Assembly (NCBI GenBank): GCA_015060445.1
Contig: SUYL01000010.1
Location: 1-39,712 of the forward strand
Source: Bacteroidales bacterium
GTDB lineage: Bacteria > Bacteroidota > Bacteroidia > Bacteroidales > UBA932
DNA: 39,712 bases
Direction of reading: 5' to 3'
The notes under the pieces are model-generated. The model searched no databases and was not told the DNA's origin. It saw nothing but the letters and a program-made list of their open reading frames with translations. Below are positions 5,936 through 39,712 of the stretch, piece after piece. Each line of letters begins with the position of its first letter. The first letter of the stretch is position 1. A program made the position numbers and the translations under genes.

Positions 5936-5960
5936 TTCATAACCAAAATAATTTTTGAGT

Positions 5961-6941
5961 ATGAACAATTCTTCTATTGAAATTTACCGTTCTCCCGAAG
6001 GCACTGTGGAGTTGGATGTAAAACTGGAAAATGAGACAGTATGGCTGACACAAAGTCAAATGGCTTTGTTATTTGGAAGAGATCAATCCGTAATTGCCCG
6101 TCACATCAATAATATTTACAAAGAAGGAGAGTTGGATAAAAATAGTACATATGCAAAATTTGCATATGTACCTGATTTGAGAGAACGATCCTATGAAACA
6201 GCTATGTATAACCTCGATGTAATTATCTCTGTAGGTTATAGGGTCAAATCTGTCAATGGCACAAGATTCAGACAATGGGCCAATAAAATCCTGAAGGACT
6301 ATCTGATAAAAGGATATACCATAAACAAAAATATCACTGCAGAACGTTACAATGAACTTAAGGATATGGTACGCATTATGTCAAGGACCATATCCCTTCA
6401 AAGCAATGTAAGTAATGATGAATATAGCGGACTGTTTAATGTAATAAGCGACTATATATATGCATTGGATATTTTGGACGGTTATGATTACCAGAATCTG
6501 ACCATTGCCAAAACCACAAACGAGGAACCTTTCAAGATAACATATGAAAACGCCATGCAGGCAATCAATGCCCTCAAGGTAAAATTTGGAGATAGCCGCT
6601 GGTTTGCAAACGAGAAAGACAACTCCTTCAAAAGCAGTATCGGGCAGATCTATCAGACATTCGGAGGAAAAGAGCTGTACGCATCAGTTGAAGAAAAGGC
6701 AGCGATGCTGCTCTATCTGGTTGTAAAGAACCACTCATTCAGCGACGGAAACAAACGCATAGCAGCAATGCTCTTCCTGTGGTTTATGGAGAAAAATGGT
6801 ATCCTTTATGGTCCCGACAAAGAAAAACGCATAGCCGACAACACTCTCGTAGCCCTCACCCTGATGATAGCTGAAAGCCGCACGGAAGAAATGAGCATAA
6901 TGGTAAAAGTTGTAGTGAATCTTATAAACAGGGAAAATTAA
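5961..6941 (+). CDS. RhuM-family protein with C-terminal Fic/Doc domain
   Basis: 326 residues. The first half is RhuM-like (SPEGTVELDVKLENETVWLT, DQSVIARHINNIYKEGEL, DLRERSYETAMYNLDVIISV, GTRFRQWA) and looks DNA-binding. The second half is a Fic/Doc domain with HSFSDGNKRIAA at about 258-269. The Asp and Lys of this motif make it closer to Doc (a kinase of EF-Tu) than to AMP-transferring Fic enzymes (HxFxxGNGR). No separate antitoxin gene flanks it, so the N-terminal half may control its own expression through the inverted repeat upstream; that is inference. ATG 5961 is preferred to the TTG at 5955. The protein is widespread on Bacteroidetes mobile DNA, and here it stands alone between a broken regulator and the thi operon. 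Confidence 0.85.
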   Translation: MNNSSIEIYRSPEGTVELDVKLENETVWLTQSQMALLFGRDQSVIARHINNIYKEGELDKNSTYAKFAYVPDLRERSYETAMYNLDVIISVGYRVKSVNGTRFRQWANKILKDYLIKGYTINKNITAERYNELKDMVRIMSRTISLQSNVSNDEYSGLFNVISDYIYALDILDGYDYQNLTIAKTTNEEPFKITYENAMQAINALKVKFGDSRWFANEKDNSFKSSIGQIYQTFGGKELYASVEEKAAMLLYLVVKNHSFSDGNKRIAAMLFLWFMEKNGILYGPDKEKRIADNTLVALTLMIAESRTEEMSIMVKVVVNLINREN

Positions 6942-23264: not shown

Positions 23265-24236
23265 ATGATTGACATTTTATTATTGATTGTAGGACTTGTA
23301 CTGATTCTTACAGGTGCAAACTATCTGGTAGATGGAGCAAGTGCCATTGCAAAGAGAGCCGGCCTCTCAGATTTCATAATTGGAATGACCATTGTTGGAA
23401 TTGGAACATCAACTCCGGAGATGGTAGTCAGCTTTGCATCTGCAATAAAAGGGAACGCAGACATTGCTGTTGGAAACGTATTGGGCTCAAACATCTTCAA
23501 TACCCTTATGATTCTTGGAGCAACAGCACTCTTCTCCCCTATCAGGCTCACATCAAACAATATCAAAAAAGATATACCGTTTGCACTGCTTGCAGCATTT
23601 GTATTGTGCACCTTCGGATGCAGTACTTGGCTCGACGGAACGGCAGTAAATACAATAACCAGAGTCGGAGGCATATTGCTTCTCTCCCTGTTCGGAGTAT
23701 TTATGGCATATACAATCTATTCCAGCGGCTCCCAGGAGGCAAGCAATACTCCCGACGAATTGTCGGGAAGCAAGAAAACTGCACCAATCTGGCTTGCATC
23801 CCTCATGATCCTGGGAGGTCTTTGCGGACTCGTATTCGGAGGGGACATGTTTGTGAATGCTGCCTCTGCCATTGCCAAGAGTCTGGGAGTATCCGATGCA
23901 GTAATTGCCGTAACCATTGTTGCAGGAGGTACATCCCTGCCTGAACTTGCATCATGCCTTGTTGCTGCATACAAGAAAAACACAGACCAGGCACTTGGTA
24001 ATGTTATTGGCTCAAATGTAAGCAACATCTTCCTCATCCTTGGAGGCAGCGCAACCATCCACCCATTGGTAATGGCCGGCACAAAGCCATTGGATCTGAT
24101 TACACTTATGGTATCATCTTTACTGATATTCCTCTTTGCATTCACCTTCAAGAAAAAACAGATAGACCGCATAGAAGGCGCCCTGTTGGTTTGCCTTTAC
24201 ATTGCATTTGTAGTTTTGACATTGAAATCCCTATAA
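23265..24236 (+). CDS. Calcium/sodium antiporter (CaCA family)
   Basis: 323 residues, about ten membrane segments in two inverted halves. Each half carries the alpha repeat: GMTIVGIGTSTPEMVVSFASA with GNVLGSNIFNTL, and AVTIVAGGTSLPELASCLVAA with GNVIGSNVSNIFLI. These acidic-residue motifs bind the ion; the family (YrbG-like) exchanges Ca2+ for Na+ or K+. A terminator follows. The codons for SG in the middle loop carry an inverted pair of the enriched GTCGGGA heptamer. Confidence 0.9.
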   Translation: MIDILLLIVGLVLILTGANYLVDGASAIAKRAGLSDFIIGMTIVGIGTSTPEMVVSFASAIKGNADIAVGNVLGSNIFNTLMILGATALFSPIRLTSNNIKKDIPFALLAAFVLCTFGCSTWLDGTAVNTITRVGGILLLSLFGVFMAYTIYSSGSQEASNTPDELSGSKKTAPIWLASLMILGGLCGLVFGGDMFVNAASAIAKSLGVSDAVIAVTIVAGGTSLPELASCLVAAYKKNTDQALGNVIGSNVSNIFLILGGSATIHPLVMAGTKPLDLITLMVSSLLIFLFAFTFKKKQIDRIEGALLVCLYIAFVVLTLKSL

Positions 24237-24246
24237 TTATCATAGT

Positions 24247-24275
24247 AAAAGGGTGTAATCAGCACCCTTTTTATT
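24247..24275 (+). terminator. Terminator after the antiporter gene
   Basis: Perfect stem AAAAGGGTG (24247-24255) / CACCCTTTT (24263-24271), 7-nt loop, T-rich end. It abuts the -7 box of the next operon. Confidence 0.75.
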
Positions 24276-24282
24276 ATATTTG
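24275..24282 (+). promoter_or_regulatory. -7 box of the marR-hdr operon
   Basis: TATATTTG fits TAnnTTTG, 29 nt before ATG 24312. No TTTG is seen at -33; the terminator of the upstream gene occupies that region. Confidence 0.45.
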
Positions 24283-24311
24283 CAATTTAGTAAAACATTA
24301 TACTATCAAAT

Positions 24312-24878
24312 ATGATACTTAACAAACAGGTAGGTGTATTCCTGAATCTTGTACATAACCGCACAAAGCAGTATATATCAAGTATTTTCCAGGAGCACGG
24401 GTTCAACATTACCCCGGAGCAGTTCCTTGTAATGGATGCCCTATGGAATGAAGGGACAATGTCGCAACAGCAGATAGCCCATACAATTATGAAGGACAAG
24501 AATTCTGTAGTAAAACTGCTGGATGGCCTTGAGAAAAAGAATCTTGTTGTAAGGGTTGCCGACAAGAACGACCGGAGACAGAACCTCATAGAACTTACCC
24601 AATATGCATGGGACATTAAAGACAGCATTACAGAGGTGGCAATAAATGCAGTGGACCTTGTAATAAAGGACATCCCGCAGAATGAGATGTATATATTCAT
24701 TAAGGTGTTGAGCAAGATGGCCGAGAACATGAATGAGGATACAGACCTCCTTGCCCTGGCTGCAAATTCAGGGGTAAAACAATCATATAGCCAGCCAACC
24801 GAGACAACTGATATCCATGCTGAAACAACAGGAATACAGACAGAAACAATGGCGAACAAAGCAGAAGAGGAAGAATAA
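24312..24878 (+). CDS. MarR-family regulator with acidic tail
   Basis: 188 residues. The winged helix is clear: ITPEQFLVMDALWNEGTMSQQQIAHTIMKDKNSVVKLLDGLEKKNLVVRVADKNDRRQNLIELT. After about residue 140 a low-complexity, Thr/Glu-rich tail of roughly 50 residues ends in KAEEEE; MarR proteins usually stop near 150. The stop overlaps the ATG of hdrC (TAATG), so it is the first gene of the redox operon and probably its repressor. MarR regulators often sense ligands or redox state, and no sensing Cys is seen. What the tail does is unknown. Confidence 0.88.
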   Translation: MILNKQVGVFLNLVHNRTKQYISSIFQEHGFNITPEQFLVMDALWNEGTMSQQQIAHTIMKDKNSVVKLLDGLEKKNLVVRVADKNDRRQNLIELTQYAWDIKDSITEVAINAVDLVIKDIPQNEMYIFIKVLSKMAENMNEDTDLLALAANSGVKQSYSQPTETTDIHAETTGIQTETMANKAEEEE

Positions 24879-25573
24879 TGGGAAAACTATACGATAAACT
24901 CACAGAAGACTACAGGGTTAAGGAGGGTCTTAAGGCCTGTATAAACTGCGGCACATGCACTGCAATCTGCCCGGCTGCAGAGTTCTATAAATATGACCCA
25001 AGACAGATTGTAGATATAGTGCAAAGCCAGGACGATGCTGAAATAGAGAAACTCCTCAAGAGCGAAACCATCTGGTATTGTGGGGAATGCATGTCATGCC
25101 TTACCCGTTGTCCGCGCAAGAATGCTCCAGGAATGGTTGTAATGGCACTGAGGAATCTCTCAATGGAACTCGGATACTTTATAGAGAGCGAGAAAGGACG
25201 CCAGCAATATGCCCTTACAAAGATAATGAGCGAAAATATCCTCAATTACGGCTACTGCGTCTATGCCCGTACCTTCAAGTCTGAGGACCATCCGGAGGCA
25301 GGACCTGTATGGGAATGGATTGAGCAGAACATGGAAGATGTATATGAGCGCAACGGGGCAAATCTTGATGGAGAGGGGCCCGGAGCCCTTAGAAAGATTC
25401 CAAAAGAGGACCTGGATGAACTGCAGAAGATATTTGACATAACCGGAGCCACCCAAAGGATTGAAACCATAAACAAATACTCCATGGAGAAGGCAAAGGA
25501 GTTGGGAATGACACCCCAGGAGTATTTCAAGCATGTATTCAACGATACAGAAAAGAACCATTTGAACGATTAG
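24878..25573 (+). CDS. HdrC-like Fe-S subunit
   Basis: 231 residues, soluble. Two [4Fe-4S] motifs lie near the N-terminus: CINCGTCTAICP and CGECMSCLTRCP, the HdrC arrangement that passes electrons between HdrA and HdrB. A helical region of about 130 residues follows, longer than in archaeal HdrC. It overlaps marR by one base and is followed by hdrB after 6 nt. Family membership is clear, but the substrate cannot be read from it. Confidence 0.88.
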   Translation: MGKLYDKLTEDYRVKEGLKACINCGTCTAICPAAEFYKYDPRQIVDIVQSQDDAEIEKLLKSETIWYCGECMSCLTRCPRKNAPGMVVMALRNLSMELGYFIESEKGRQQYALTKIMSENILNYGYCVYARTFKSEDHPEAGPVWEWIEQNMEDVYERNGANLDGEGPGALRKIPKEDLDELQKIFDITGATQRIETINKYSMEKAKELGMTPQEYFKHVFNDTEKNHLND

Positions 25574-25579
25574 AAGATT

Positions 25580-26647
25580 ATGATATATCAGGGTAAACAG
25601 AAAATTTGGAGTGATTATCAGAAGGATATTCCCGACGACCATTACTTTTATGTACGCAGTTGCATACGCCAGAATCTCTTTCCTGCCAGCGAGAAGACCT
25701 TCCTGGACATAACCCGCAACAAGTTGGGAAAGGATTTCTTTGAGACAGAGCACCACACAACTTGCGGAGGTATAGCATACCACTGTGATGCCATTCCACA
25801 GGAGACCTCAATGACCATAATTGCAAGGCAATTTGCCCTTATGCACAAATATGGTTATGAGAATTATGTATGTTCTTGCATCACATCTTTCGGATTGTAT
25901 ACAGAAACTCTTGAGACCTGGAGGGAGTTTCCTGAACTGGAGGCAAAAATAAGGGAAAACCTATGGAAAACCTGCAAACTGGAGTTCGCAAAGCCAAAAT
26001 ACCTTGCCCACGCCAGTGACATCATATACAAATACCGGAATCTTATTGCCGCTCAGGCAAAATACAAACTCATAAACAGACACACAGGACAACCTCTGAG
26101 GATTGTGGAGCATATAGGGTGTCACTACGGCAAGATGTTCCCGAGCAAAAGTGTAGGAGGAGCAGAATACCCATATGTACTTGCAGGAATGATTGAAGCC
26201 TGGGGAGGGGAAGTCATTGATTATCCCGAAAGGAGGCATTGCTGCGGATACGGTTTCCGCCAGTACCACGTAAGGAGCAACAGAGGCTATTCTCTGGCCA
26301 ATACCCACAAGAAATTTGAGAGTATGGAGCCTTACAAACCTGATATGATAATTACAAACTGCCCCGGCTGTCCTTATTTCCTTGACCGCTGGCAATATGT
26401 AATATCTGAGATGGAAGGGAAGACATATGGCGAGAACGGACACGGAATACCTGTATTTACATACGAAGAGGTTGCCGGACTGGTAATGGGATACAACCCA
26501 TGGGACCTTGGACTTCAGATGCATCAGGTGGGTCCGGAACCTGTATTGGACAAAATAGGGATACCATATGACCCTGATGCAAAATACAAGGGGGTAAACA
26601 ACAAGGATCTCGGAAGGCCCCAGTTGCCAAGTTGCGGATGCCTGTAG
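25580..26647 (+). CDS. HdrB-like subunit with one intact CCG site
   Basis: 355 residues. HdrB holds two CCG domains, each binding a noncubane [4Fe-4S] cluster that splits the disulfide in methanogens. The C-terminal domain is intact: C181, C221-C222 (HCCGYGF) and C261xxC264 (NCPGC). The N-terminal one is altered: C28, then TTCGG (one Cys of the CC pair missing, C62 present) and VCSC (98, 100) instead of CxxC. The end SCGCL adds two more Cys. So it may carry one standard cluster, and its substrate may differ from CoM-S-S-CoB, which is not expected in this organism. Confidence 0.86.
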   Translation: MIYQGKQKIWSDYQKDIPDDHYFYVRSCIRQNLFPASEKTFLDITRNKLGKDFFETEHHTTCGGIAYHCDAIPQETSMTIIARQFALMHKYGYENYVCSCITSFGLYTETLETWREFPELEAKIRENLWKTCKLEFAKPKYLAHASDIIYKYRNLIAAQAKYKLINRHTGQPLRIVEHIGCHYGKMFPSKSVGGAEYPYVLAGMIEAWGGEVIDYPERRHCCGYGFRQYHVRSNRGYSLANTHKKFESMEPYKPDMIITNCPGCPYFLDRWQYVISEMEGKTYGENGHGIPVFTYEEVAGLVMGYNPWDLGLQMHQVGPEPVLDKIGIPYDPDAKYKGVNNKDLGRPQLPSCGCL

Positions 26648-26677
26648 AAATAATTGTCGGGAAGAAAAAATGCAATT

Positions 26678-27694
26678 ATGAAAAATATAGTGATAATTGG
26701 AGGAGGTCCCAGCGGACTGGAAGCAAGTGCCCAGCTTCATAAAATGGGCTACAATGTTATTCTGGTGGAGAAATCACCGGTCTTGGGTGGGCATCTTGCC
26801 AAATGGGACCGTCTGTTCCCTCAAGGAATATCGGCCAAAGAAGTGCTTGAGAAGATGATTTCCCAGATTAATGGAGTAAAATATTTTGTTGAGGCAAATG
26901 TGCAGAGCATAAACCTGCTCGACAAATCATACAATGTAATACTGGACAACGGAATTACAGTTCTTGCAGATGCAGTGCTGTTTACCACCGGCTTTGAACT
27001 GTTCAAGGCCCAAAAGAAGGAGGAATACGGCTACGGAATCTATGAGAGGGTAATTACTAATGCAGACCTTGAAAACTGGTTCAGGACTAAAGATGACAGG
27101 CGAATTATAGAAAGCCCCAAAAGGATAGGGTTTGTACACTGCGTAGGCTCAAGGGATGAAAAGGCCGGCAACAGATACTGCTCAAAGGTATGCTGTGCAA
27201 CAGCGGTAAAGCAGGCCTGCGAGATAAAGCAGGAGTTCCCCGATGCCCAGGTGTATTGCTTCTATATGGACTTGAGGATGTTCGGCCGCGGATTTGAAGA
27301 CATGTATCTCTCTGCGCAAAAAGACTACGGTGTAAGATTCATCCGCGGAAGAGTTTCAGAGGTTGCAGAAAACATTGATAAAGAACTTGTTGTAAAGGCT
27401 GAAGACACCCTCAGCGGCAAACCTGTTAAAGTTACCCTGGACCTGCTGGTACTTATGTCGGGAATGCAGAACTGTGCTGATGCAGTAAAAGTTGCAGCAC
27501 AGATTGGTGTAGCAGGAAGGGAGAATGACGGCTTCTTTGAGACAAAAGATTCAATCTATTCTCTCCAGAACAGTACAAAACCGGGGGTATTCTTTGCCGG
27601 TGCATGTACAGGGCCCAAGACCCTCCCCGACTCTCTCCATGAGGCCAGGGCTGCAGCACTTGCAATACACAATTATCTCATAGATAAAAAATAA
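26678..27694 (+). CDS. HdrA-like FAD protein (short form)
   Basis: 338 residues. It opens with the FAD-binding motif IVIIGGGPSGLEAS and has the HdrA signature with four Cys: HCVGSRD (C155), YCSKVCC (C168, C172, C173). It ends GVFFAGACTGPKTLPDSLHEARAAA, the second FAD motif. It lacks the ferredoxin-like inserts of the 650-residue archaeal HdrA and is close in size to QmoA. A separate ferredoxin gene follows 11 nt later. ATG 26678 is chosen over the upstream TTG. It could bifurcate electrons or simply transfer them; the sequence does not decide. Confidence 0.87.
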   Translation: MKNIVIIGGGPSGLEASAQLHKMGYNVILVEKSPVLGGHLAKWDRLFPQGISAKEVLEKMISQINGVKYFVEANVQSINLLDKSYNVILDNGITVLADAVLFTTGFELFKAQKKEEYGYGIYERVITNADLENWFRTKDDRRIIESPKRIGFVHCVGSRDEKAGNRYCSKVCCATAVKQACEIKQEFPDAQVYCFYMDLRMFGRGFEDMYLSAQKDYGVRFIRGRVSEVAENIDKELVVKAEDTLSGKPVKVTLDLLVLMSGMQNCADAVKVAAQIGVAGRENDGFFETKDSIYSLQNSTKPGVFFAGACTGPKTLPDSLHEARAAALAIHNYLIDKK

Positions 27695-27705
27695 AGGGAA
27701 CAGAG

Positions 27706-28026
27706 ATGGGAAAATTCGGATTCACCCTCAATCCAAGTTCCAGAATAGACCTGGACAAGGTTGACAGGGAAAAATTCAACAAACTGGTGGAAATAGAACC
27801 TGATGTACTCAAATGTATGGCTTGTGGAAGTTGTACAGCAAGTTGTACTGCCGGAAAGTTTGTAAAGACCAGCATGCGGAGCGCCATACTTGCCCTGCAG
27901 AACGGTAAGGAGGAAGATGCAAAAGAGTTCCTCAAGGGGTGCCTGTTGTGCGGAAAATGCACAATGGTATGTCCAAGGGCAATAAATACCAGACACCTTA
28001 TTTTGTCAATCCTAAAGATTTATTGA
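27706..28026 (+). CDS. Small dicluster ferredoxin-like subunit (second HdrC-like)
   Basis: 106 residues with two [4Fe-4S] motifs, CMACGSCTASC and CLLCGKCTMVCP, and little else. It resembles the HdrC core. It lies between the HdrA-like and membrane subunits (1-nt gap to the next ATG), so it probably wires the soluble HdrABC part to the membrane part. Confidence 0.85.
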   Translation: MGKFGFTLNPSSRIDLDKVDREKFNKLVEIEPDVLKCMACGSCTASCTAGKFVKTSMRSAILALQNGKEEDAKEFLKGCLLCGKCTMVCPRAINTRHLILSILKIY

Positions 28027-28027
28027 G

Positions 28028-29848
28028 ATGAGAGAGAGAATAGCAGGCGGATATGATGATTTTGTAATTCCTTTTATGATAGGAATGTGCTTCATCTTTA
28101 TATATCTGACAATAGCACTGATAAGACTTTTTACACATATACCGCCAAAAGACAGGATCAGATTCTTTAAATCGCTGGTAAACCCTGCCATAATGTTAAA
28201 AAATGCCAGAGATATCCTCTGCGACTGCCTTCTGCATATAAAGATATTCAAAAGGAACCTTCTGTTGGGCTATATGCATGCCAGCATTGCCTTTGGATGG
28301 TTCATGCTTATCCTTATAGGACACATAGAGGTAGCCCTTTATGTTCCCCAAAGGAACGGAGTCCTCTACTACCCTGTATTTTTCAGGTATTTTGTAAAAT
28401 TTGAAGGGGAAACCACCCTCAAGGGGTCATTCTTCTTCTTCCTCATGGATTTCTTCCTCCTTATGGTACTTACCGGAGTGGGGCTTGCCATGTACAAGAG
28501 GTTCCGCTCAAGGGCCCTTGGAATGAGGAGGACCACCAAACCATGTTTTGCAGACAGGGTTGCATTGGCATGCCTTTGGAGCATATTTCCTCTAAGACTC
28601 CTCGCAGAGAGTTTTACTGCAGGAATTGCCGGAGGAAGTTTCCTTACCAAACCTATGTACTGGCTCTTCAACAACTTCCTGAGCAATGACATGCACATCC
28701 TCCCTACCTGGTGGGCATACTCAACTGCCATAGGACTGTTCATGCTGGCACTGCCGTTCAGCAGATATATGCACATCCCTACAGAGGCATTCCTCATCCT
28801 GCTGCGCAATGCCGGGCTCAAAGTTACCAAGCCCCGGAAAGGATTTGCAGAGGCGGAAATCTACTCCTGCTCAAGTTGCGGAATATGTATAGATGCCTGC
28901 CCAATGAACATACAGAAAAAGAACCTTCCGTTCTCTTCCGTATATTTCATGAGGTTCCTCCGCAGGAACAACATCAAAAAGATGAACCAGATTGCAGACA
29001 AATGCCTCATGTGCGGCAAATGCGTGGCACTGTGCCCCGTAGGGGTTGAATCGTGCGGCATAAAGAGGGCACAGAGGGCAACTGTATACAATGACGTGAA
29101 ACATGACTACACATATCTGCACCAGGCACATCATACTCCCGACAACACCTCGTCGGGAGACAACGGCAAGGTACTCTATTTTGCAGGGTGCATGACACAC
29201 CTTACCCCTTCCATAATAAAGAACCTCACAGGAATCTTTGAATTGTCGGGAACAGAGTATGTATTCGCCGACAAGGATGGCGGGGTATGCTGCGGAAGAC
29301 CATTGATTCTCGCCGGAAGGGAAGATGCTGCAAAAGAGGTAATTGCCCGCAACTCACAGATGATACAGGAGAGCGGTTGCAGGAAGGTGGTCCTCTCCTG
29401 CCCTATCTGCCTTAAAGTGCTTAAGGAGGAGTACAATCTGAAGGGGATTGAACTGCTCCATCATACCCAATTCATAAATTCACTTATTGAGGAGGGAAAA
29501 ATTAAAGTAAAGAGAGGTAATGAGAGCCTCGTTTACCACAACCCTTGCGAACTTGGGCGCGGATGCGGAATTTATAAGGAGCCGCTGAATGTGCTGCAGC
29601 AGTTGGGAGAACTGAAAAAGGCTGAAAAAGAGGGTAAAGAGAGTATATGCTGCGGTGGCAGCCTTGGTAGCCTCACCCTCAGTTACGAAGACAGGGGCAA
29701 AATTACCCAGGGGTCACTGGATGCCCTTACCGTAAATAATCCCGACAAGATAGTTACAGCATGTCCTCTGTGCCTGAAAACATTTGCCGACAAAAGCGAC
29801 AGGCCGGTTGTTGACATAGCCCAAATAGTAAACGAAAACATTTGTTAA
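28028..29848 (+). CDS. Membrane HdrE-HdrD fusion (DsrM/DsrK-like)
   Basis: 606 residues. The N-terminal 260 residues hold about five membrane segments with His residues placed as in HdrE/NarI cytochrome b subunits (MHASIAFGW, LIGHIEV, SRYMHIPTEAF). Next are two [4Fe-4S] motifs (CSSCGICIDACP 281-292; CLMCGKCVALCP 326-337) and two complete CCG domains: C388, C421-C422, C458xxC461; and C507, C541-C542, C579xxC582. So one chain does the work of HdrE and HdrD, or DsrM and DsrK. It would link a cytoplasmic disulfide or thiol reaction to heme and menaquinone in the inner membrane. It is the last gene of the operon. Confidence 0.87.
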   Translation: MRERIAGGYDDFVIPFMIGMCFIFIYLTIALIRLFTHIPPKDRIRFFKSLVNPAIMLKNARDILCDCLLHIKIFKRNLLLGYMHASIAFGWFMLILIGHIEVALYVPQRNGVLYYPVFFRYFVKFEGETTLKGSFFFFLMDFFLLMVLTGVGLAMYKRFRSRALGMRRTTKPCFADRVALACLWSIFPLRLLAESFTAGIAGGSFLTKPMYWLFNNFLSNDMHILPTWWAYSTAIGLFMLALPFSRYMHIPTEAFLILLRNAGLKVTKPRKGFAEAEIYSCSSCGICIDACPMNIQKKNLPFSSVYFMRFLRRNNIKKMNQIADKCLMCGKCVALCPVGVESCGIKRAQRATVYNDVKHDYTYLHQAHHTPDNTSSGDNGKVLYFAGCMTHLTPSIIKNLTGIFELSGTEYVFADKDGGVCCGRPLILAGREDAAKEVIARNSQMIQESGCRKVVLSCPICLKVLKEEYNLKGIELLHHTQFINSLIEEGKIKVKRGNESLVYHNPCELGRGCGIYKEPLNVLQQLGELKKAEKEGKESICCGGSLGSLTLSYEDRGKITQGSLDALTVNNPDKIVTACPLCLKTFADKSDRPVVDIAQIVNENIC

Positions 29849-29891: not shown

Positions 29892-31178
29892 ATGGAGATA
29901 AAACCCACTTCTTACAAACTGGAAAACTGCGCTACCGGACGCCAGTTCAATGATGAAGGATGGATGCTCGCAGATTCTGAGCACAAAGATCCTGCACTAG
30001 TCAGAGCAATATATGAGAAAAAACAGATAGAGTTCAAGGATAACTCATACGGACTATACAAGTTTGCAGACTGGATGCCTGTTTCACGTATGCTTGAGGG
30101 GTCATGTGCCCCTGTAACATATAAAAGTGAGGCATTGGCAAAAGAACTTGGTCTGGAGAACCTCTACATCACCTTCAGCGGATGGTGGCCAGAGAAGGGT
30201 GCCCAGATGCCAACCTGCTCATTCAAGGAGACTGAGGCATACTCTGTATGTGCAAGACTTCCAAAAGAGAATGACAGAATACTTGTAGTTGCATCTGCAG
30301 GAAACACAGCAAGGGCATTTGCACAGGTATGTTCAAACAACAACATTCCTATTGTAATTGCAATCCCTTACGACAACCTCAATGCCCTATGGTTCCGTGA
30401 GCCACTGAATGACTGTGTAAAAATCATCTGCACCCCTACCGGAACAGACTACTTTGATGCCATAGCCCTTGCTGCAAAACTCAACGGCAGCAAACGCTAT
30501 ATGGAAGAAGGCGGTGCAAAGAACGTTGCCCGCAGAGACGGAATGGCAACAACAGTACTCTCTGCAGCACAGGTAATAGGCCGTATTCCCGACAGTTACT
30601 TCCAGGCAGTAGGAAGCGGTACAGGCACCATTGCAGCATATGAGAGCAACCTGAGGCTCCTTGAGGACGGCCGCTTTGGAAGCCACCTTATGAAACTCAT
30701 CCCTTCACAGAACATACCATTTGTACCGATGTACGATGCATTCAAGGCCGACAGCCGCGCACTGCTCCCGTTTGATGAAGATGAGGCCCGCGTAAAGGCA
30801 CTTGAAATAAACGCAAAAGTACTCTCCAACCGCAAACCGCCATATGGCATAGTTGGAGGCTTGTATGATGTGCTCAAGGCTACAAAAGGTGATATGGAGA
30901 TTGTAACCAATGAAGAACTCGCAGCAGCATGCGACCTGTTTGAGAAACTTGAAGGGTGTGATATCAACCCGGCAGCAGGGGTTGCCGTTGAGAGTCTGCG
31001 CAAAGCCATTGCAAGCGGCAAAGTGAAGAAAGAGGAGGTAATAATGCTGAACATAACAGGTGGCGGCGAAAAACGCTTCAAGGCCGAGCACAAATGGATT
31101 TCCATTGAGCCTCACCTTGTAATGGACGCATCTACCCCGGCAGAAGAGGTAATTGCAGCAGTAGACAAACTATTCTAA
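29892..31178 (+). CDS. Cysteate synthase-like PLP enzyme (threonine synthase family)
   Basis: 428 residues, fold-type II. The PLP lysine is K112 in TCSFKETEA, the phosphate loop is AVGSGTGTIAA, and SAGNTARAFAQVC is the substrate loop. Several stretches (GLYKFADWMPVSRMLEG, SGWWPEKGAQMPTCSFKE, EGGAKNVARRDGM) are those I associate with archaeal cysteate synthase, not with true ThrC. That enzyme makes L-cysteate from phosphoserine and sulfite. In Bacteroidetes, cysteate feeds sulfonolipids. A sulfate-type transporter follows 45 nt later, which agrees. A threonine synthase role is the alternative. Confidence 0.8.
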   Translation: MEIKPTSYKLENCATGRQFNDEGWMLADSEHKDPALVRAIYEKKQIEFKDNSYGLYKFADWMPVSRMLEGSCAPVTYKSEALAKELGLENLYITFSGWWPEKGAQMPTCSFKETEAYSVCARLPKENDRILVVASAGNTARAFAQVCSNNNIPIVIAIPYDNLNALWFREPLNDCVKIICTPTGTDYFDAIALAAKLNGSKRYMEEGGAKNVARRDGMATTVLSAAQVIGRIPDSYFQAVGSGTGTIAAYESNLRLLEDGRFGSHLMKLIPSQNIPFVPMYDAFKADSRALLPFDEDEARVKALEINAKVLSNRKPPYGIVGGLYDVLKATKGDMEIVTNEELAAACDLFEKLEGCDINPAAGVAVESLRKAIASGKVKKEEVIMLNITGGGEKRFKAEHKWISIEPHLVMDASTPAEEVIAAVDKLF

Positions 31179-31223: not shown

Positions 31224-32936
31224 ATGAGCTTTAAATTTTATGAGGTATTCCAGCCAAAACTATTTGAGCTGTTCAAAAAAGGGAACTACAACAAGCAGAC
31301 ATTCACTGCCGACCTCATTGCAGGTATAATTGTAGGTATAATTGCCCTTCCGCTTGCAATTGCATTCGGTATTGCCAGCGGTGTCTCTCCACAACAGGGA
31401 CTTATAACTGCCGTTGTTGCAGGTTTCCTTGTATCATTCTTTGGAGGATCACACTTCCTCATTGGAGGACCTACCGGAGCATTCATCGTTATTGTTTACG
31501 GAATCGTAGCACAATACGGCATATCCGGACTTATCGTTGCCACAGTGTTGGCAGGTATAATCCTTGTGCTGATGGGTGTATTCAAACTTGGAAGCATAAT
31601 CAAATTCATCCCTTACCCTATTGTTGTGGGCTTCACCAGCGGTATTGCGGTAGTAATCTTCTCAACACAGGTAAAGGACTTCCTGGGACTTACAATTGAT
31701 AACCTCCCAAGCGAATTCATACCTCAATGGAGTGCTTACTTTGCACACCTTACCACATTCAAGTTGCACGAGTTCCTGTTGAGTCTCGGATGCCTCCTTG
31801 TAATCATCTTCTGGCCTAAAGTAACCAACAAGGTACCAGGCTCACTGATTGCAATCATCCTGGGAACAGCAGCCTCTATCCTACTTACAAAATTTGGAGT
31901 GGCAGAGTTCGCAACTATCGGGAGCAAATTCCCTGAATTGGCAAACGGCATAGAGGTGCCAAAACCTGTAGTGCCGCACATCACCTGGGATACAGTACAG
32001 AACATGTTCCAGCCAGCATTCACAATTGCCCTCCTTTGCGCAATTGAGTCATTGCTTGCAGCAATGGTGGCAGACGGTGTAACAGGCAAAAGGCACAACT
32101 CAAACACTGAACTTATTGGCCAGGGTATAGCAAACATCATCACCCCATTCTTTGGCGGTATCCCTGCAACCGGAGCATTGGCAAGAACAATGGCAAACAT
32201 CAACAACGGCGGAAAATCCCCTGTTGCCGGCCTTGTACATGCAGTAGTACTGCTCCTCATCTTCCTATTCCTCATGCCGTACGCAGTATATATTCCACTT
32301 GGTTGCCTTGCAGCAATCCTTGTAATGGTAGCATACAACATGAGTGAATGGAGAACCTTCAAATATCTGCTCAAAGGAAACAAGACAGACGTATCGGTAC
32401 TCCTTATCACCTTCTTCCTCACTGTAATCATTGACCTTACAGTAGCAATTGAGGTAGGACTTGTACTTGCAATCATCCTGTTTGTAAAACGTATCTCTGA
32501 AACCTCATCAATTAAAGTACTTGAGGGAGATACAGTGCCTGGAACAGAAAACGATGAAAAGGCAATGCTTGCAGACACCGAACACCTGGATGTTGCCCCT
32601 GCAGTAGAGATATATGAGATTGACGGACCTTTCTTCTTCGGACTTGCCAGCAAACTTGATGAAATAGACCGCGACCTGCGCAAACAGGGCATAAAAGTGC
32701 GTATCATCCGTATGAGAAAGGTACCGTTCATGGACTCAACAGGATTGAACAACTTGAGGAGCCTTTGGAAACGCTCACAGAAAGAGAACGTACAGATAAT
32801 CCTCAGCGGTGTAAACGACAATGTCCTTGCATACCTCAATAAAGTGGGATTTGCACAAGAACTTGGCAAAGAATACATCTTCCCTCACATCATCCCTGCC
32901 GTAGCCAAGGCAAATGAACTGAGCGAAAAGAAATAA
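31224..32936 (+). CDS. SulP-family anion transporter with STAS domain
   Basis: 570 residues. It has about 12-14 membrane segments (LIAGIIVGIIALPLAIAFGIASGV; GGPTGAFIVIV; IPYPIVVGFTSGIAVVIF; GGIPATGALART) and a C-terminal STAS domain (about 440-565) with MDSTGLNNL. The family moves sulfate, bicarbonate or other anions. The adjacent cysteate synthase-like gene favours sulfate, but bicarbonate or fumarate uptake cannot be excluded. A strong terminator follows. Confidence 0.9.
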   Translation: MSFKFYEVFQPKLFELFKKGNYNKQTFTADLIAGIIVGIIALPLAIAFGIASGVSPQQGLITAVVAGFLVSFFGGSHFLIGGPTGAFIVIVYGIVAQYGISGLIVATVLAGIILVLMGVFKLGSIIKFIPYPIVVGFTSGIAVVIFSTQVKDFLGLTIDNLPSEFIPQWSAYFAHLTTFKLHEFLLSLGCLLVIIFWPKVTNKVPGSLIAIILGTAASILLTKFGVAEFATIGSKFPELANGIEVPKPVVPHITWDTVQNMFQPAFTIALLCAIESLLAAMVADGVTGKRHNSNTELIGQGIANIITPFFGGIPATGALARTMANINNGGKSPVAGLVHAVVLLLIFLFLMPYAVYIPLGCLAAILVMVAYNMSEWRTFKYLLKGNKTDVSVLLITFFLTVIIDLTVAIEVGLVLAIILFVKRISETSSIKVLEGDTVPGTENDEKAMLADTEHLDVAPAVEIYEIDGPFFFGLASKLDEIDRDLRKQGIKVRIIRMRKVPFMDSTGLNNLRSLWKRSQKENVQIILSGVNDNVLAYLNKVGFAQELGKEYIFPHIIPAVAKANELSEKK

Positions 32937-35320: not shown

Positions 35321-36712
35321 TTACACCAGGAACAAAAAGCCCAGAACCACAATTAAAGCCACTACAAAGAGATCTATAAGACAGTAGCCCATTATATCCT
35401 TTGCGTTGAGTTTTGCGATTGCAAGGGCCGGAAGTGCCCAAAACGGCTGTATAAGATTGGTCCAGGCATCTCCATATGCAATTGCCATTCCTGTAACTGA
35501 AGGATCAACTCCCAACTGTACACCGGCAGGTAGCATAATTGGAGCCTGTACTGCCCACTGCCCGCCACCGCTAGGTACAAATACATTTACAATACCTGCA
35601 CTGAGGAACGAAAGCATAGGGAATGTCTTTTCGTTTGAAATTGCCACACACGCCTCGCTTATCTGACCTGCAAGGGATATACCTTCTGCAGAAGATGAGG
35701 TCATGATGCCCATAATTCCCGCATAGAAAGGGAACTGCAGCAAAATGCCGGCAGCAGAAGAGGCAGCCTTGTTTACCGCCTTCACATATTTGATAGGAGT
35801 TTTATGGAGAACAATACCCAGGAACATGAAAAGCATTATCACATTGTTCAAATCCAGGCTCCCCCCATTTATCACAATCTTTATGAAGAGGTAACCCAAT
35901 CCCAGCAATGCTGTTATTCCCGACAATACCATACTGTTGTTCAACTTCTCGGAAGGGGTAAGTTTCCACTCCAATTTGCACTCCTTCTCACCTATTGCTC
36001 CGCAAAGTTCCCTCTCCTGAAGATCCTCCTCTTCTCCAAGAAGTGCAGGGTCAACTGAGAAAGTCTTGTCGGGAGACGGATGCATAAGGGTATTTACAAC
36101 AGTAAGGGCAATAATGATTGCAAAGGCAATGATAAGGTTATATGTTGCAAAAATTGTCTGCGAAATTGGAATTGCAGAGGTAATAGTTCCTCTGGAAACT
36201 TCAACCAATGATGCCCCCTCTGTTGCCATAGCCAAAGGAATAGATGCAGAAAGTCCTGAATGCCAAACAACAAAACCGCTGTATGCTGAGGCAATAAGGA
36301 GCCTGTAATCAACACCTTTTACAGCCCTGGCAATCTCTTTGGCAAAAATTGCCCCCACAATAAGTCCAAATCCCCAATTGATCCAGCATGCAATTGATGA
36401 AACCAAAGTAACCGTTGTAATGGCTGCAGCAGGCGTTTTTGGAAACGCAGCCATTTTGCGCAATCCCTTCTTTACAAGAGGTGCATCGGCAAGGGCAGAA
36501 CCGCACACAAGCACCAGTGCCATCTGCATTGAAAAGGCAAGGAGACTCCAAACTCCCCCACCCCAATTCTCCACAACTTCCAATGGCGACTGGCCTGTAA
36601 AGGCAATTGCAGCAACTGCCGCAAGGACAGTAAGTATAATTGCAAAAACAAATGGGTCGGGAAGAAATTTCCTTATAAACTTCACCGACAAATCTATAAG
36701 TTTACCTAACAT
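35321..36712 (-). CDS. atoE: Short-chain fatty acid transporter
   Basis: 463 residues with about 12 membrane segments; the AtoE/TIGR00366 signature is clear (RFLPDPFVFAIILT, WGGGVWSLLAFSMQMALVLVCG, CWINWGFGLIVGAI, FVPSGGGQWAVQAPIM, GDAWTNLIQPFWALPAL). It moves acetoacetate or butyrate-type acids. ATG 36712 (MLGKLIDL) is preferred to the TTG at 36733. Butyrate-type metabolism is also suggested by the Etf and acyl-CoA dehydrogenase genes 0.5 kb away on the same strand. Confidence 0.9.
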   Translation of the reverse strand: MLGKLIDLSVKFIRKFLPDPFVFAIILTVLAAVAAIAFTGQSPLEVVENWGGGVWSLLAFSMQMALVLVCGSALADAPLVKKGLRKMAAFPKTPAAAITTVTLVSSIACWINWGFGLIVGAIFAKEIARAVKGVDYRLLIASAYSGFVVWHSGLSASIPLAMATEGASLVEVSRGTITSAIPISQTIFATYNLIIAFAIIIALTVVNTLMHPSPDKTFSVDPALLGEEEDLQERELCGAIGEKECKLEWKLTPSEKLNNSMVLSGITALLGLGYLFIKIVINGGSLDLNNVIMLFMFLGIVLHKTPIKYVKAVNKAASSAAGILLQFPFYAGIMGIMTSSSAEGISLAGQISEACVAISNEKTFPMLSFLSAGIVNVFVPSGGGQWAVQAPIMLPAGVQLGVDPSVTGMAIAYGDAWTNLIQPFWALPALAIAKLNAKDIMGYCLIDLFVVALIVVLGFLFLV

Positions 36713-36735
36713 CTCAATTCTAATATTTATCAAAT

Positions 36736-37239: not shown

Positions 37240-38256
37240 TTATTTTTTAATCTCTTTTGCCAATCTCTCGGTTAGCATAGGAACAATCTTGTTAGCATCA
37301 CCAACAATACCAAGATCTGCTACCTGGAAGATAGGAGCAAATTTGTCTTTGTTGATAGCGATGATAAGTTCAGACTCCTCCATACCTGCCAAGTGCTGGA
37401 TAGCACCTGAGATACCGCAAGCCAAGTATAGGTCTGGACGTACAGTCTTACCTGTCTGACCAACCTGTCTGTCATGATCCATGATACCTGCGTCAACCAT
37501 TGCACGTGAAGAAGAAACCTCACCACCAATAACCTGAGCAAGAGCTGCAAGTTTCTCAAAGTTCTCTTTGTTACCTACACCTCTACCACCTGATACAAGT
37601 ACTTTAGCCTCAGTAATGTCAACAAGACCTTTCTCAGCTTTAACAGTCTCAAGCAGTTTAACGGCAAATTTAGATGAATCAAATGTTACAGCGAAAGGAA
37701 TAACGTTACCTTTTCTGTTGGTATCTTTCTCTTTCTTCTGCATAACGCCTGGACGTACTGTAGCCATCTGAACGCCATCTTTAGCAGCAACGATAGTAGC
37801 CATAAGGTTACCACCGAATGCAGGACGGGTCATCATAAGTTTTCTGGCCTCCAATTTAGGATCTGAGCCGTCTGAAATCTCCAATTTGGTACAGTCAGCT
37901 GTAAGACCTTTCTCCAATCTTGCAGAAAGTCTTGGAGCCAAGTCTCTACCGATAGTAGTAGCACCAAATAGAACGATATCTGGGTTCATAGCAGTGATTA
38001 CCTGGTAAACAGCCTGAGTATACTGCTCAGTAACATAATCTTTAAGTTCAGGAGCGTCAACTACGATAACATCATCAGCACCGTAAGCGATCAACTCGTT
38101 AGCCTGAGAAGCGATGTTGTGTCCAGCGAAAATAGCAACTACTTTATCGCCCAAAACATCTGCCAAATCTCTTGCTTTGCCAATAAGCTCTAGAGCAACA
38201 GGTTGGATTACACCCTCTCTCTGCTCTGCGAATACATATACGTTTTTATTATTCAT
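37240..38256 (-). CDS. etfA: Electron transfer flavoprotein alpha subunit
   Basis: 338 residues. The N-terminal ETF domain is followed by the FAD domain with LVSGGRGVG, SSSRAMVDAG, the GQTGKTVRPDLYLACGISG signature, and NKDKFAPIFQVADLGIVGD. With EtfB it forms the flavoprotein that passes electrons to or from acyl-CoA dehydrogenase. The end of the bcd-etfB-etfA set; a terminator follows. Confidence 0.95.
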   Translation of the reverse strand: MNNKNVYVFAEQREGVIQPVALELIGKARDLADVLGDKVVAIFAGHNIASQANELIAYGADDVIVVDAPELKDYVTEQYTQAVYQVITAMNPDIVLFGATTIGRDLAPRLSARLEKGLTADCTKLEISDGSDPKLEARKLMMTRPAFGGNLMATIVAAKDGVQMATVRPGVMQKKEKDTNRKGNVIPFAVTFDSSKFAVKLLETVKAEKGLVDITEAKVLVSGGRGVGNKENFEKLAALAQVIGGEVSSSRAMVDAGIMDHDRQVGQTGKTVRPDLYLACGISGAIQHLAGMEESELIIAINKDKFAPIFQVADLGIVGDANKIVPMLTERLAKEIKK

Positions 38257-38276
38257 TTCTTCTTAAGTTTTGGCGA

Positions 38277-39056
38277 TTAGATAATAAATTTCTCTTTAAG
38301 TTTGCTTACGATCAAGCCAACTGCCTGCTCTGCATCAACCTCGTGAACCTCACCTGCAGCTTTAACACCTTTGGTGAATGATTTGTAAACTCTAGTACCT
38401 GAGCCTTTCAAACCTAGCATCTCAAGAGGTAGATTAACTTTGTCTACACCCCAAACTGCAACTGGTTTGTCAAATGCATCAACGATACCAGCCACGTTCA
38501 TATAACGAGCTTTGAAACCGCTTGCAAGTGCAGTAAGAAGAACTGGACCAGCTACCTCCAACATCTGGTAACCCTCCTCAGTCTCTTTCTTAACAATGAA
38601 TTTACCATCTTTGTACTCAAGACCTGCAACGTATGAAACCTGTGGAAGACCAAGGTGCTCTGCAATCTGTGGACCTACCTGAGCGGTATCACCGTCAATT
38701 GCCTGTCTACCTGCAATGATAAGGTCATACTCCAAGTTCTTAAGAGCTGCAGCAATAGTGTGTGAAGTTGCCAAAGTATCAGCACCACCAAACTCTCTAC
38801 CGGTAAGAAGGATAGCCTCGTCTGCGCCCATTGCATATGCCTCTCTTAGGATAGCATCTGCCTGAGGAGGACCCATAGTAATAACGGTTACGTGTGCACC
38901 GTACTGATCTTTCAACTGAAGAGCCATCTCCAAGCCACCTTTATCATCTGGGTTCATAATGCTTGGAACGCCATCACGGATAAGTGTACCTGTTACAGGG
39001 TTAATTTTAATAACTGTAGTATCCGGTACTTGTTTAATACAAACTACTATTTTCAT
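38277..39056 (-). CDS. etfB: Electron transfer flavoprotein beta subunit, bifurcating type
   Basis: 259 residues. It begins IVVCIKQVPDT and has the motifs seen in anaerobe Etf that bind a second FAD and bifurcate electrons: TGTLIRDGVPSIMNPDDKGG, VTVITMGPPQA, MGADEAILLTGREFGGADT and AGRQAIDGDTAQVGPQIAEHL. NADH would reduce crotonyl-CoA and ferredoxin together. It starts 11 nt after the acyl-CoA dehydrogenase stop, and etfA follows after 20 nt. Confidence 0.93.
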   Translation of the reverse strand: MKIVVCIKQVPDTTVIKINPVTGTLIRDGVPSIMNPDDKGGLEMALQLKDQYGAHVTVITMGPPQADAILREAYAMGADEAILLTGREFGGADTLATSHTIAAALKNLEYDLIIAGRQAIDGDTAQVGPQIAEHLGLPQVSYVAGLEYKDGKFIVKKETEEGYQMLEVAGPVLLTALASGFKARYMNVAGIVDAFDKPVAVWGVDKVNLPLEMLGLKGSGTRVYKSFTKGVKAAGEVHEVDAEQAVGLIVSKLKEKFII

Positions 39057-39067
39057 ACTGTGTGATT

Positions 39068-39712
39068 TTACTTAAATAATTTTGCTGCAATTACCATTCT
39101 CTGAACCTCTGAAGTTCCCTCATAGATCTCTGTGATCTTAGCGTCACGCATCATTCTCTCTACAGGATACTCCCTTGTGTAACCGTAACCGCCGTGGAAC
39201 TGAACTGCTTTTGTAGTTACCTCCATTGCAGTCTCAGCAGCGAACAATTTACACATTGCTGCATCAGCAGAGAAAGGCATACCCATATCCTGTTTCCAAG
39301 CAGCAGACCTTACCAACAGACGTGCAGCCTGTACTTTGGTCTCAAGATCAGCCATCTGGAACTGGGTGTTCTGGAATGCAGAAATTGATCTGCCGAACTG
39401 TTTTCTCTCTTTAGTATATTTTACAGTCTCATCCATAGCACCCTGTGCAATACCTAGAGCCTGTGAAGCAATACCTATACGACCACCGTCAAGAGTCTTC
39501 ATTGCAACTTTGAAGCCCTCACCCATCTTACCAAGCATATTTGCTTTAGGAACACGGCAGTTCTCAAAAATCAACTCACAAGTAGCAGAACCTCTGATAC
39601 CTAGTTTGTGCTCTTTCTTACCAATTGAGAAACCAGGAGTACCGGCCTCAACAATGAAAGTGGTGATACCCTTGTTGCCAAGAGCTTTGTTTGTCATGGT
39701 AGCAACTACATA
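39068..39712 (-). CDS. Acyl-CoA dehydrogenase, C-terminal part (cut by the window)
   Basis: The last 214 codons; the gene continues past 39712. It shows GIRGSATCELIFENCRVP, FKVAMKTLDGGRIGIASQALGIAQGA, YTKERKQFGRSI, QFHGGYGYTREYPVERMMRDAKI and the catalytic Glu in IYEGTSEVQRMVIA. Its place before etfB-etfA suggests butyryl-CoA dehydrogenase (Bcd). The substrate specificity cannot be settled without the N-terminal half. Confidence 0.93.
   Translation of the reverse strand, partial: YVVATMTNKALGNKGITTFIVEAGTPGFSIGKKEHKLGIRGSATCELIFENCRVPKANMLGKMGEGFKVAMKTLDGGRIGIASQALGIAQGAMDETVKYTKERKQFGRSISAFQNTQFQMADLETKVQAARLLVRSAAWKQDMGMPFSADAAMCKLFAAETAMEVTTKAVQFHGGYGYTREYPVERMMRDAKITEIYEGTSEVQRMVIAAKLFK

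Follow-up and report, generated by a model that had tools for sequence, protein, structure and literature searches.

The heterodisulfide reductases (Hdr) of methanogens, HdrABC and HdrED, reduce CoM-S-S-CoB, the mixed disulfide of coenzymes M and B, and the HdrB and HdrD families cleave disulfides. In the accessible parts of the literature, the sulfur-oxidising Hdr-like (sHdr) systems fall into type I, encoded by shdrC1B1AHC2B2, and type II, encoded by shdrC1B1AHB3 with etfAB (PMC11582611), and are described as releasing sulfite (PMC12423496, PMC11582611). Sulfite is also a substrate of cysteate synthase, which in its Methanosarcina form joins it with O-phosphoserine, according to the accessible text of PMC12713407. 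The sulfonolipid pathway consists of cysteate synthase, the acyltransferase SulA (cysteate-C-fatty acyltransferase, CFAT) and 3-ketocapnine reductase, and the sulfonolipids of gut bacteria are reported, in the part of PMC11211663 available, to influence immunity and inflammation. Neither PMC9304779 nor PMC11211663 uses the word ‘sulfite’ in its main text (0 occurrences in each), and neither says where the sulfite for cysteate comes from.

A candidate for such a source is encoded in a window of 39,712 nucleotides, the whole stretch of DNA analysed here, on contig SUYL01000010.1 (C63) of the Bacteroidales assembly GCA_015060445.1 (genome G000; 2179728 bases, 67 contigs, 87% complete). A MarR-family regulator gene and five Hdr-type genes, namely hdrC, hdrB, hdrA, the gene of a small iron-sulfur protein (fd) and a fused hdrED, run along the + strand from 24312 to 29848 (Table 1), with cysS, the gene for cysteate synthase, coming next. 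It is very probable that the hdr block serves the synthesis of cysteate and sulfonolipids, and probable that its products supply sulfite. As an explanation of the whole, we lean towards an sHdr-like, membrane-anchored complex that would make sulfite for cysteate synthase by oxidising sulfane sulfur with menaquinone.

No publication joining heterodisulfide reductase with sulfonolipid, and none combining sulfobacin, sulfite and biosynthesis, was found in a search outside which preprints and most subscription journals lay. The preliminary description of the locus knew of no function for this gene set in gut Bacteroidales, and none was found among the listed titles and opening lines of abstracts on Hdr with Bacteroides or Bacteroidota. 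For Black Sea isolates, Bacteroidota included, the accessible part of a 2024 study considers Hdr genes as a possible means of sulfide detoxification and reports no sulfide oxidation in culture; Ancylomarina and Labilibaculum, genera named as capnine-lipid producers, are among these isolates (PMC11129491). If the proposal is correct, Hdr chemistry would take its place in biosynthesis rather than respiration, and sulfide or cysteine could serve gut bacteria as the starting point for sulfonates. In strict anaerobes that do not assimilate sulfate, the operon would offer a concrete answer, testable by knock-out, to where the sulfite for sulfonolipids comes from.

Linkage of the hdr block to sulfonolipid genes

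What points most specifically to a function for the hdr genes is their cysteate synthase neighbour, along with their association with sulfonolipid genes. Genome contigs scanned for relatives of HdrB gave at least 587 matches, from which the best 80 loci were fetched. Nine of these are too short for the comparison, and in 42 of the 71 that extend 1.5 kb or more beyond hdrED the cysteate synthase gene follows directly, with a median gap of 12 nt to its first possible start. In the window the spacing is 43 nt, and a further 45 nt separate cysS from the gene of a SulP-family anion transporter. The gaps within the block are -1, 6, 30, 11 and 1 nt, in agreement with the preliminary description of six tightly packed genes with no gap above 30 nt. 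Its operon stands as far as the genes and their order are concerned, but not in its end at 29848, which overlooked the cysteate synthase gene just downstream; judged from the gene layout, the transcription unit need not stop there, as cysteate synthase and SulP come next. The SulP gene trails cysS in only a few close relatives, so that its link to the hdr-cysS unit is uncertain and a role as sulfate importer for the sulfonolipid pathway is no more than possible.

Moreover, the hdr genes lie inside sulA clusters in four families. Loci from the window's own family or near it (L045, L187, L124 and L134) carry, in this order, genes for a VOC-like protein, an alpha-oxoamine synthase and a short-chain dehydrogenase/reductase (SDR), then hdrC-B-A-fd-ED and lastly the cysteate synthase gene. 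In family f41 (L058) the oxoamine synthase and a threonine-synthase-like (cysS-like) gene are found 5' of hdr and the SDR gene 3', in f93 (L177) the oxoamine synthase and a cysS-like gene stand ahead of hdr, and in f72 (L175, L176) the oxoamine synthase, cysS-like, SDR and VOC-like genes share one cluster with the five hdr genes. The genome of the window also has sulA with an adjoining SDR gene, on contig C62.

The oxoamine synthase of these clusters is, by sequence, SulA/CFAT, the cysteate-specific acyltransferase. The L045 protein matches PDB 7u7h with 542 bits and 28eh, entitled ‘Cysteate-C-fatty acyltransferase’, with 540, as against 232 for serine palmitoyltransferase (Spt). Lys281 is described, in the accessible part of PMC9304779, as setting SulA apart from Spt, which has Ala at this position. 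The 7u7h chain bears the motif around Lys281 and is for this reason taken as A. finegoldii SulA. The motif, AKSLP or AKALP, is present in 30 of the 30 SulA-class genes read, that of the window's genome (L188) included, a count that leaves out two alpha-oxoamine synthases at 30–31% identity (L130, L140).

Two further proteins accompany sulA. The VOC-like protein, of about 360 residues, is encoded beside it in several families (L124, L134, L045, L175, L176, L180–L185); one copy matches lactoylglutathione lyase weakly (29.7 bits, cut-off 120), a second has no NCBIfam match at 1e-10, and we know of no role for it. A threonine-synthase-like enzyme dependent on pyridoxal phosphate (PLP) is encoded beside or near sulA at L058 (6351–7583), L175–L181, L185, L186 and L214, and also at L200, there without sulA. 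The three copies scored reach about 109–121 bits with the cysteate synthase model TIGR03844, and a genome search of G039, G051, G060, G080 and G099 gave no match to this model above its cut-off. On its sequence, the enzyme is a candidate for a second type of cysteate synthase.

Co-occurrence of hdrB with sulA

Co-occurrence was counted in 159 genomes of the order, selected with a 95% completeness filter and including the window's own genome, and in an overlapping set of 100 relatives. Matches of at least 379 bits, or their split fragments, were counted as sulA, and oxoamine synthase matches of up to 256 bits were dropped, which left 75 of the 91 matching genomes in the set of relatives. There, matches to hdrB in G075, G095 and G097 (21–33 bits) were also left out, so that 57 of 60 were counted, fragments at contig ends in G003, G030 and G070 among them.

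In the order sample hdrB is present in 61 genomes, for whose Hdr genes a role is proposed here, sulA in 118 and cysH in 98. Genomes with hdrB divide 60/1 into those with and without sulA and those lacking hdrB 58/40 (Fisher test, 1.8e-9); the division by genus is 53/1 against 43/27 (p = 2.2e-7), and across 21 genera of f1, the window's own family, outside the genus of the window 10/0 against 2/9 (p = 2.2e-4), ancestry being ignored in all three tests. The 100 relatives give 55/2 and 20/23. The one order-sample genome with hdrB but no sulA, G080, carries a cluster of cysH, cysD, cysN and a cysS-like gene (L200).

The action of the methanogen enzymes on CoM-S-S-CoB would also suit an operon that makes and recycles a sulfonate thiol resembling coenzyme M (CoM), with Hdr reducing the heterodisulfide. 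Cysteate synthase would then start the route, as it opens CoM synthesis in Methanosarcina (PMC12713407, accessible part). However, hdr co-occurs with SulA, which is already a user of cysteate, and this reading is considered highly improbable.

Sulfate reduction and the proposed supply of sulfite

The sulfate-reduction gene cysH tracks sulA as well. In the order sample, where cysH was listed only to an E-value of 1e-35, 90 of the 98 genomes with cysH also have sulA (p = 2e-10). Four of 28 genomes in the 100-genome set, with matches of only 51–72 bits, were dropped to leave 24, and matches below the curated cut-off (147–162 against 165.1 bits) account for 2 of these 24 and 6 of the 98. Since cysH sits with sulA in so large a share of genomes, it is largely a companion of the sulfonolipid genes in this order, as if the main reason to retain the conversion of sulfate to sulfite were the making of sulfonolipids. 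The two genes lie within 10 kb of each other in 9 of the 90 order-sample genomes with both, counted by eye. They adjoin in six genomes without hdr (L178–L183), in two of them with cysD and cysN, whilst L184 shows the same arrangement in a genome with hdr elsewhere; these seven loci were picked for reading because the tables showed sulA-cysH linkage. Three of the L178–L183 clusters contain a DASS-like anion symporter gene, one of which was scanned (102 bits, cut-off 198.6).

Where hdr and sulA are found without cysH, the sulfate route is mostly not recognised. Amongst 20 such genomes searched, CysD was not found in 18 and Sat was not found in any; CysD is present in ten of ten controls, hand-picked from genomes with cysH and without hdr (seven for their sulA-cysH linkage), and Sat was not found in any of the 30 genomes searched. 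Hence, no route leading from sulfate to sulfite is recognised in 18 of the 20, and yet cysteate synthase needs sulfite. The hdr genes thus appear to fill the place taken elsewhere by sulfate reduction, which argues that they supply sulfite. In comparison with the sulfonolipid pathway as described, which is matched here by an adjacent cysS and by sulA and SDR genes in the same genome or cluster, a source of sulfite is added, in the form of either hdr or cysH with cysDN. A simple swap of cysH for hdr was rejected, as 40 genomes hold both. In the following genomes with sulA, the searches found no hdrB and no cysH: G058, G062, G078, G091, G108, G111, G151, G195 and G216.

The frequent presence of cysH alongside hdr, together with the SulP gene two genes downstream in the window and the appearance of QmoC among the relatives of the HdrC-like protein, would fit a complex like QmoABC that passes electrons from menaquinol to a reductase of adenosine 5'-phosphosulfate (APS) or 3'-phosphoadenosine 5'-phosphosulfate (PAPS), so that sulfite came from sulfate. 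QmoABC does have parts of the HdrA, HdrC and HdrE types and a link to quinone. However, QmoC is a fusion of HdrC and HdrE, whereas here HdrE is fused to HdrD and an HdrB is present, and the HdrC-like protein reaches only 52 bits with the QmoC model, for which the cut-off is 300; a one-to-one match with Qmo was therefore not found. Unlike Qmo, which is encoded next to AprAB and Sat, the block occurs in genomes where, as described, sulfate activation is mostly not recognised and Sat is absent from the matches, AprAB not having been searched for; 20 of the 60 genomes with hdr and sulA have no cysH match at all. A Qmo-like role is thus very unlikely.

Components of the Hdr block

All NCBIfam Hdr matches of the block lie under their curated equivalog cut-offs (HdrA 246 of 1100 bits, HdrB 129.7 of 450, HdrC 91.6 of 270), and the Pfam and NCBIfam domains agree with the soluble HdrABC parts and membrane HdrE-HdrD module that had been described behind the MarR gene. 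In the HdrC-like protein eight cysteines are invariant in 112 sequences, as are the eight of the two [4Fe-4S] motifs of the 106-residue iron-sulfur protein in 94. HdrB models align with the HdrB-like protein over almost its full length. Its second CCG motif is complete (C181, C221, C222, C261 and C264; 114 sequences), and the first is reduced to C28, C62 and C100, with three of five cysteines in 18 of the 18 sequences compared. The HdrA-like protein contains an FAD motif and C155, C168, C172 and C173, and a Pfam scan of its 338 residues found no Fer4 or ferredoxin domain. Residues 1–329 align with PDB 6tjr, which we take to be sHdrA of the sulfur-oxidising sHdr of Hyphomicrobium denitrificans, whereas with methanogen HdrA chains the main aligned stretch is limited to residues of about 90–330.

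The HdrE-HdrD fusion has a hydrophobic N-terminal half with four hydrophobic segments, which no model matched in the profile scans and for which HdrE is a presumptive label. H70, H84 and H249 of this half are invariant in 103 sequences and are possible heme ligands. The C-terminal half contains two [4Fe-4S] motifs and two complete CCG motifs (388–461 and 507–582). A quinone is the likely partner of the fusion, as judged from its make-up.

As with sHdr, the gene order is C-B-A followed by C2-like and B2/HdrD-like genes, HdrA is short, lacks ferredoxin domains and aligns with 6tjr over nearly its full length, and sulfite is the proposed product. Unlike sHdr, the window has no gene at the sHdrH position, no B2 or B3 and no adjacent etfAB; B2 is replaced by HdrD fused to the membrane protein HdrE, and the block is tied to biosynthesis whereas sHdr is tied to thiosulfate respiration. 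The building blocks HdrA, HdrB, HdrC and HdrE-HdrD are shared with the methanogen enzymes, HdrB being similar over nearly its full length. The differences are that the scores of HdrA, HdrB and HdrC fall far below the equivalog cut-offs, that HdrA has no ferredoxin domains and HdrB no two complete CCG motifs, and that the HdrABC and HdrED parts are merged into one operon. The preliminary description had suggested a membrane-linked sulfur redox complex exchanging electrons between ferredoxin or NADH and menaquinone. Of this, the role in sulfur metabolism and the link to membrane and quinone are likely, but coupling to ferredoxin is unsupported, because HdrA is short and does not have the ferredoxin domains found in its bifurcating counterparts, and a ferredoxin-coupled bifurcating complex was rejected for the same reason.

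Proposed mechanism

We infer that the five Hdr-like proteins would form one membrane-anchored complex dedicated to the synthesis of cysteate and sulfonolipid (capnine). HdrB, HdrC, HdrA and the small iron-sulfur protein would make up a soluble module of the sHdr type, which the HdrE-HdrD fusion would anchor whilst exchanging electrons with menaquinone. Working in the presumed oxidative direction, the complex would oxidise sulfur at the sulfane level (cysteine- or CoA-persulfide, or polysulfide) to sulfite, with the electrons draining through the menaquinone pool. Cysteate synthase, often encoded just behind hdrED, would join the sulfite to phosphoserine, and SulA, a ketoreductase and an acyltransferase would then build the sulfonolipid.

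Two loci point to sulfane sulfur through their TusA, DsrE and rhodanese neighbours. In G084 (L056, 2–12316) hdrB and hdrC occur a second time, separated by a 743-residue gene, and are accompanied by genes for a YeeE-type Sulf_transp protein, two TusA and two DsrE-like proteins, a double rhodanese, FlpD and a Crp-type regulator, possibly a cluster for sulfane-sulfur trafficking. In G082 (L054, 34–6634) TusA, FlpD, a GltD/HdrA fusion (916 residues), HdrA (657 residues) and a QmoC-like protein (151 bits, cut-off 300) are encoded upstream of hdrCBA-fd-ED.

For the S0/sulfite couple the computed standard value is -39 mV, which shifts to about -113 to -128 mV at 10 to 1 uM sulfite. The potential of menaquinone is about -74 mV. 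Under standard conditions menaquinone would therefore be unable to oxidise S0 to sulfite, but it could do so while cysteate synthase removes the sulfite, since the low concentration brings the couple within its reach. Sulfur oxidation with menaquinone as acceptor is put forward only tentatively. The same role could be played in the reductive direction, where thiosulfate or an S-sulfo-thiol (R-S-SO3-) would be cleaved at an S-S bond to yield sulfite, using menaquinol electrons driven by the membrane potential. The linkage and co-occurrence data fit this equally well, and both the two complete CCG motifs of HdrD and the disulfide cleavage typical of the HdrB and HdrD families are in its favour; nevertheless, the potential of thiosulfate reduction lies far below that of menaquinol, and HdrA is of the short 6tjr type, taken to be sulfur-oxidising, so that reduction is considered unlikely.

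Several observations weigh against a dedicated sulfite-producing complex. The gene behind hdrED is not cysS in 29 of the 71 loci, and in the order sample hdrB lies within 10 kb of sulA, by eye, in just 4 of the 60 genomes with both (G099, G131, G152 and G207), all four of which lack cysH. Shared ancestry inflates the Fisher tests. Furthermore, cysH is also present in 40 of the 60 genomes with hdr and sulA, the contrast between hdr and cysH among sulA genomes is weak (p = 0.017), and 8 of the 118 order-sample genomes with sulA have neither hdrB nor cysH; one genome with neither, G058, is 99% complete and has both cysS and sulA. One HdrB site is degenerate, unlike in sHdr. Also unlike the known sHdr, TusA is no commoner in genomes with hdr (4 of 18) than in those without hdr and sulA (5 of 17), and no extra full GCV_H match resembling the lipoate-binding protein LbpA was found in the 18 genomes with hdr, where no LbpA-specific model was used. 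A single full GCV_H match was found in 17 of the 18, G076 being without any, and in 14 of the 17 genomes without hdr; G124 has a weak partial second match. In the 17 genomes GCV_H is encoded on another contig than hdrB or, in G211, 1.2 Mb away.

These counts give no support to a dependence on LbpA or TusA as in sHdr. Since neither TusA nor the lipoate carrier shows an association with hdr, the sulfur donor may be a small-molecule persulfide.

The loci without cysS, the 40 genomes with cysH and the neglected relatedness of the genomes would equally suit a general thiol/disulfide or redox-balancing complex, transferring electrons to menaquinone from NADH or thiols, with a link to sulfonolipids that reflected a shared lifestyle or ancestry. 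This is improbable in view of the presence of sulA in all but one of the hdr genomes of the order sample, the exception having its own cysH-cysD-cysN-cysS-like cluster, of the hdr genes within sulA clusters in four families, and of TusA, for which no comparable association is seen among 35 genomes. The preferred reading, a complex that supplies sulfite, may be extended to an anabolic sulfur oxidation in anaerobic Bacteroidales, in which a menaquinone-coupled Hdr complex, working without O2 and independently of LbpA and TusA, would oxidise reduced sulfur to sulfite solely for cysteate and sulfonolipid synthesis and back up or replace cysDNH, although this is offered more cautiously still.

Conservation and distribution

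The best 80 of the at least 587 HdrB loci come mostly from Bacteroidales or Bacteroidia bacteria, largely of the animal gut, and include Candidatus Cryptobacteroides and Merdivivens and single loci of Alistipes, Bacteroidaceae and Lentimicrobiaceae. With 13 loci too short for the comparison, the order hdrC-hdrB-hdrA-fd-hdrED is kept in 67 of the 67 with room, so that the genes are not scattered in these loci, a check that the preliminary description had proposed. Elsewhere, the block is clustered but permuted in family f72 (C-Fd-ED-B-A; L175, L176), and in family f2 only hdrB and hdrA adjoin within the 16–18 kb stretch read (L049, L189). Some genomes have an extra hdrC/hdrB pair (L044, from G047, and the G084 locus L056). 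In a set of 392 genomes of the phylum, which with the exception of G000 are 90% or more complete, a high hdrB score belongs only to G000 among the matches listed (369 rows of the set are not among them), with two others at 144–147 bits; the hdr family seems nearly absent outside the order, the share of this order among the 392 being not known.

Features of the window

Table 1. Genes and signals of the hdr region in the window, with the matches on which each assignment is based
Feature	Position	Strand	Evidence
Intergenic region	24216–24311	+	Promoter-like site 24216–24243; terminator-like hairpin 24247–24271
MarR-family regulator, 188 aa	24312–24878	+	Pfam PF01047, E 3e-13
HdrC-like protein, two [4Fe-4S] motifs	24878–25573	+	NCBIfam HdrC models 67–92 bits, below cut-off
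HdrB-like protein	25580–26647	+	HdrB models 130 and 112 bits, below cut-off; PDB 9sfi, 5odc HdrB
Short HdrA-like flavoprotein, 338 aa	26678–27694	+	Best PDB chain 6tjr, 216 bits
Small two-cluster Fe-S protein, 106 aa, HdrC2-like	27706–28026	+	PF13183; NCBIfam HdrC 36.9 bits, far below cut-off
HdrE-HdrD fusion, 606 aa	28028–29848	+	PF02754 twice; TfrB/LdhH/GlpC/DsrK relatives, all below cut-off
Cysteate synthase (cysS), PLP enzyme	29892–31178	+	TIGR03844 458 bits, cut-off 324.9; PDB 9k3c, entitled ‘Cysteate synthase’, 570 bits
SulP-family anion transporter with STAS domain	31224–32936	+	TIGR00815 402 bits, cut-off 380; DauA model 522 bits, cut-off 614

The promoter and terminator signals predicted ahead of the MarR gene are weak, since the counts in the scanned region scarcely differ from those in shuffled sequence (16 promoter-like sites against 19.6, and 16 terminator-like sites against 12.7). 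The HdrA-like gene may alternatively start further upstream, with a TTG at 26654. Relatives of the MarR protein (40–48% identity) adjoin cysS or sulA where no hdr was found, at L067 (G058) and L203 (G216), and likewise stand beside cysS or sulA at L124 and L209. On the 5' side of the hdr block there are a calcium/sodium antiporter gene, carA and an open reading frame of 1074 residues that is putatively carB.

Further downstream, EtfA, EtfB and an acyl-CoA dehydrogenase are encoded at 37240–39697 and a short-chain fatty acid transporter at 35321–36733. EtfAB (37240–39056) was rejected as a partner of the kind seen in type II sHdr, as it lies 7–8 kb away beside the acyl-CoA dehydrogenase and transporter genes; the EtfAB and acyl-CoA dehydrogenase genes are likely to belong to fatty-acid metabolism and to be unrelated to hdr. 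At 5955–6941 the window encodes a protein that combines a Fic/DOC domain with an N-terminal part of the RhuM family.

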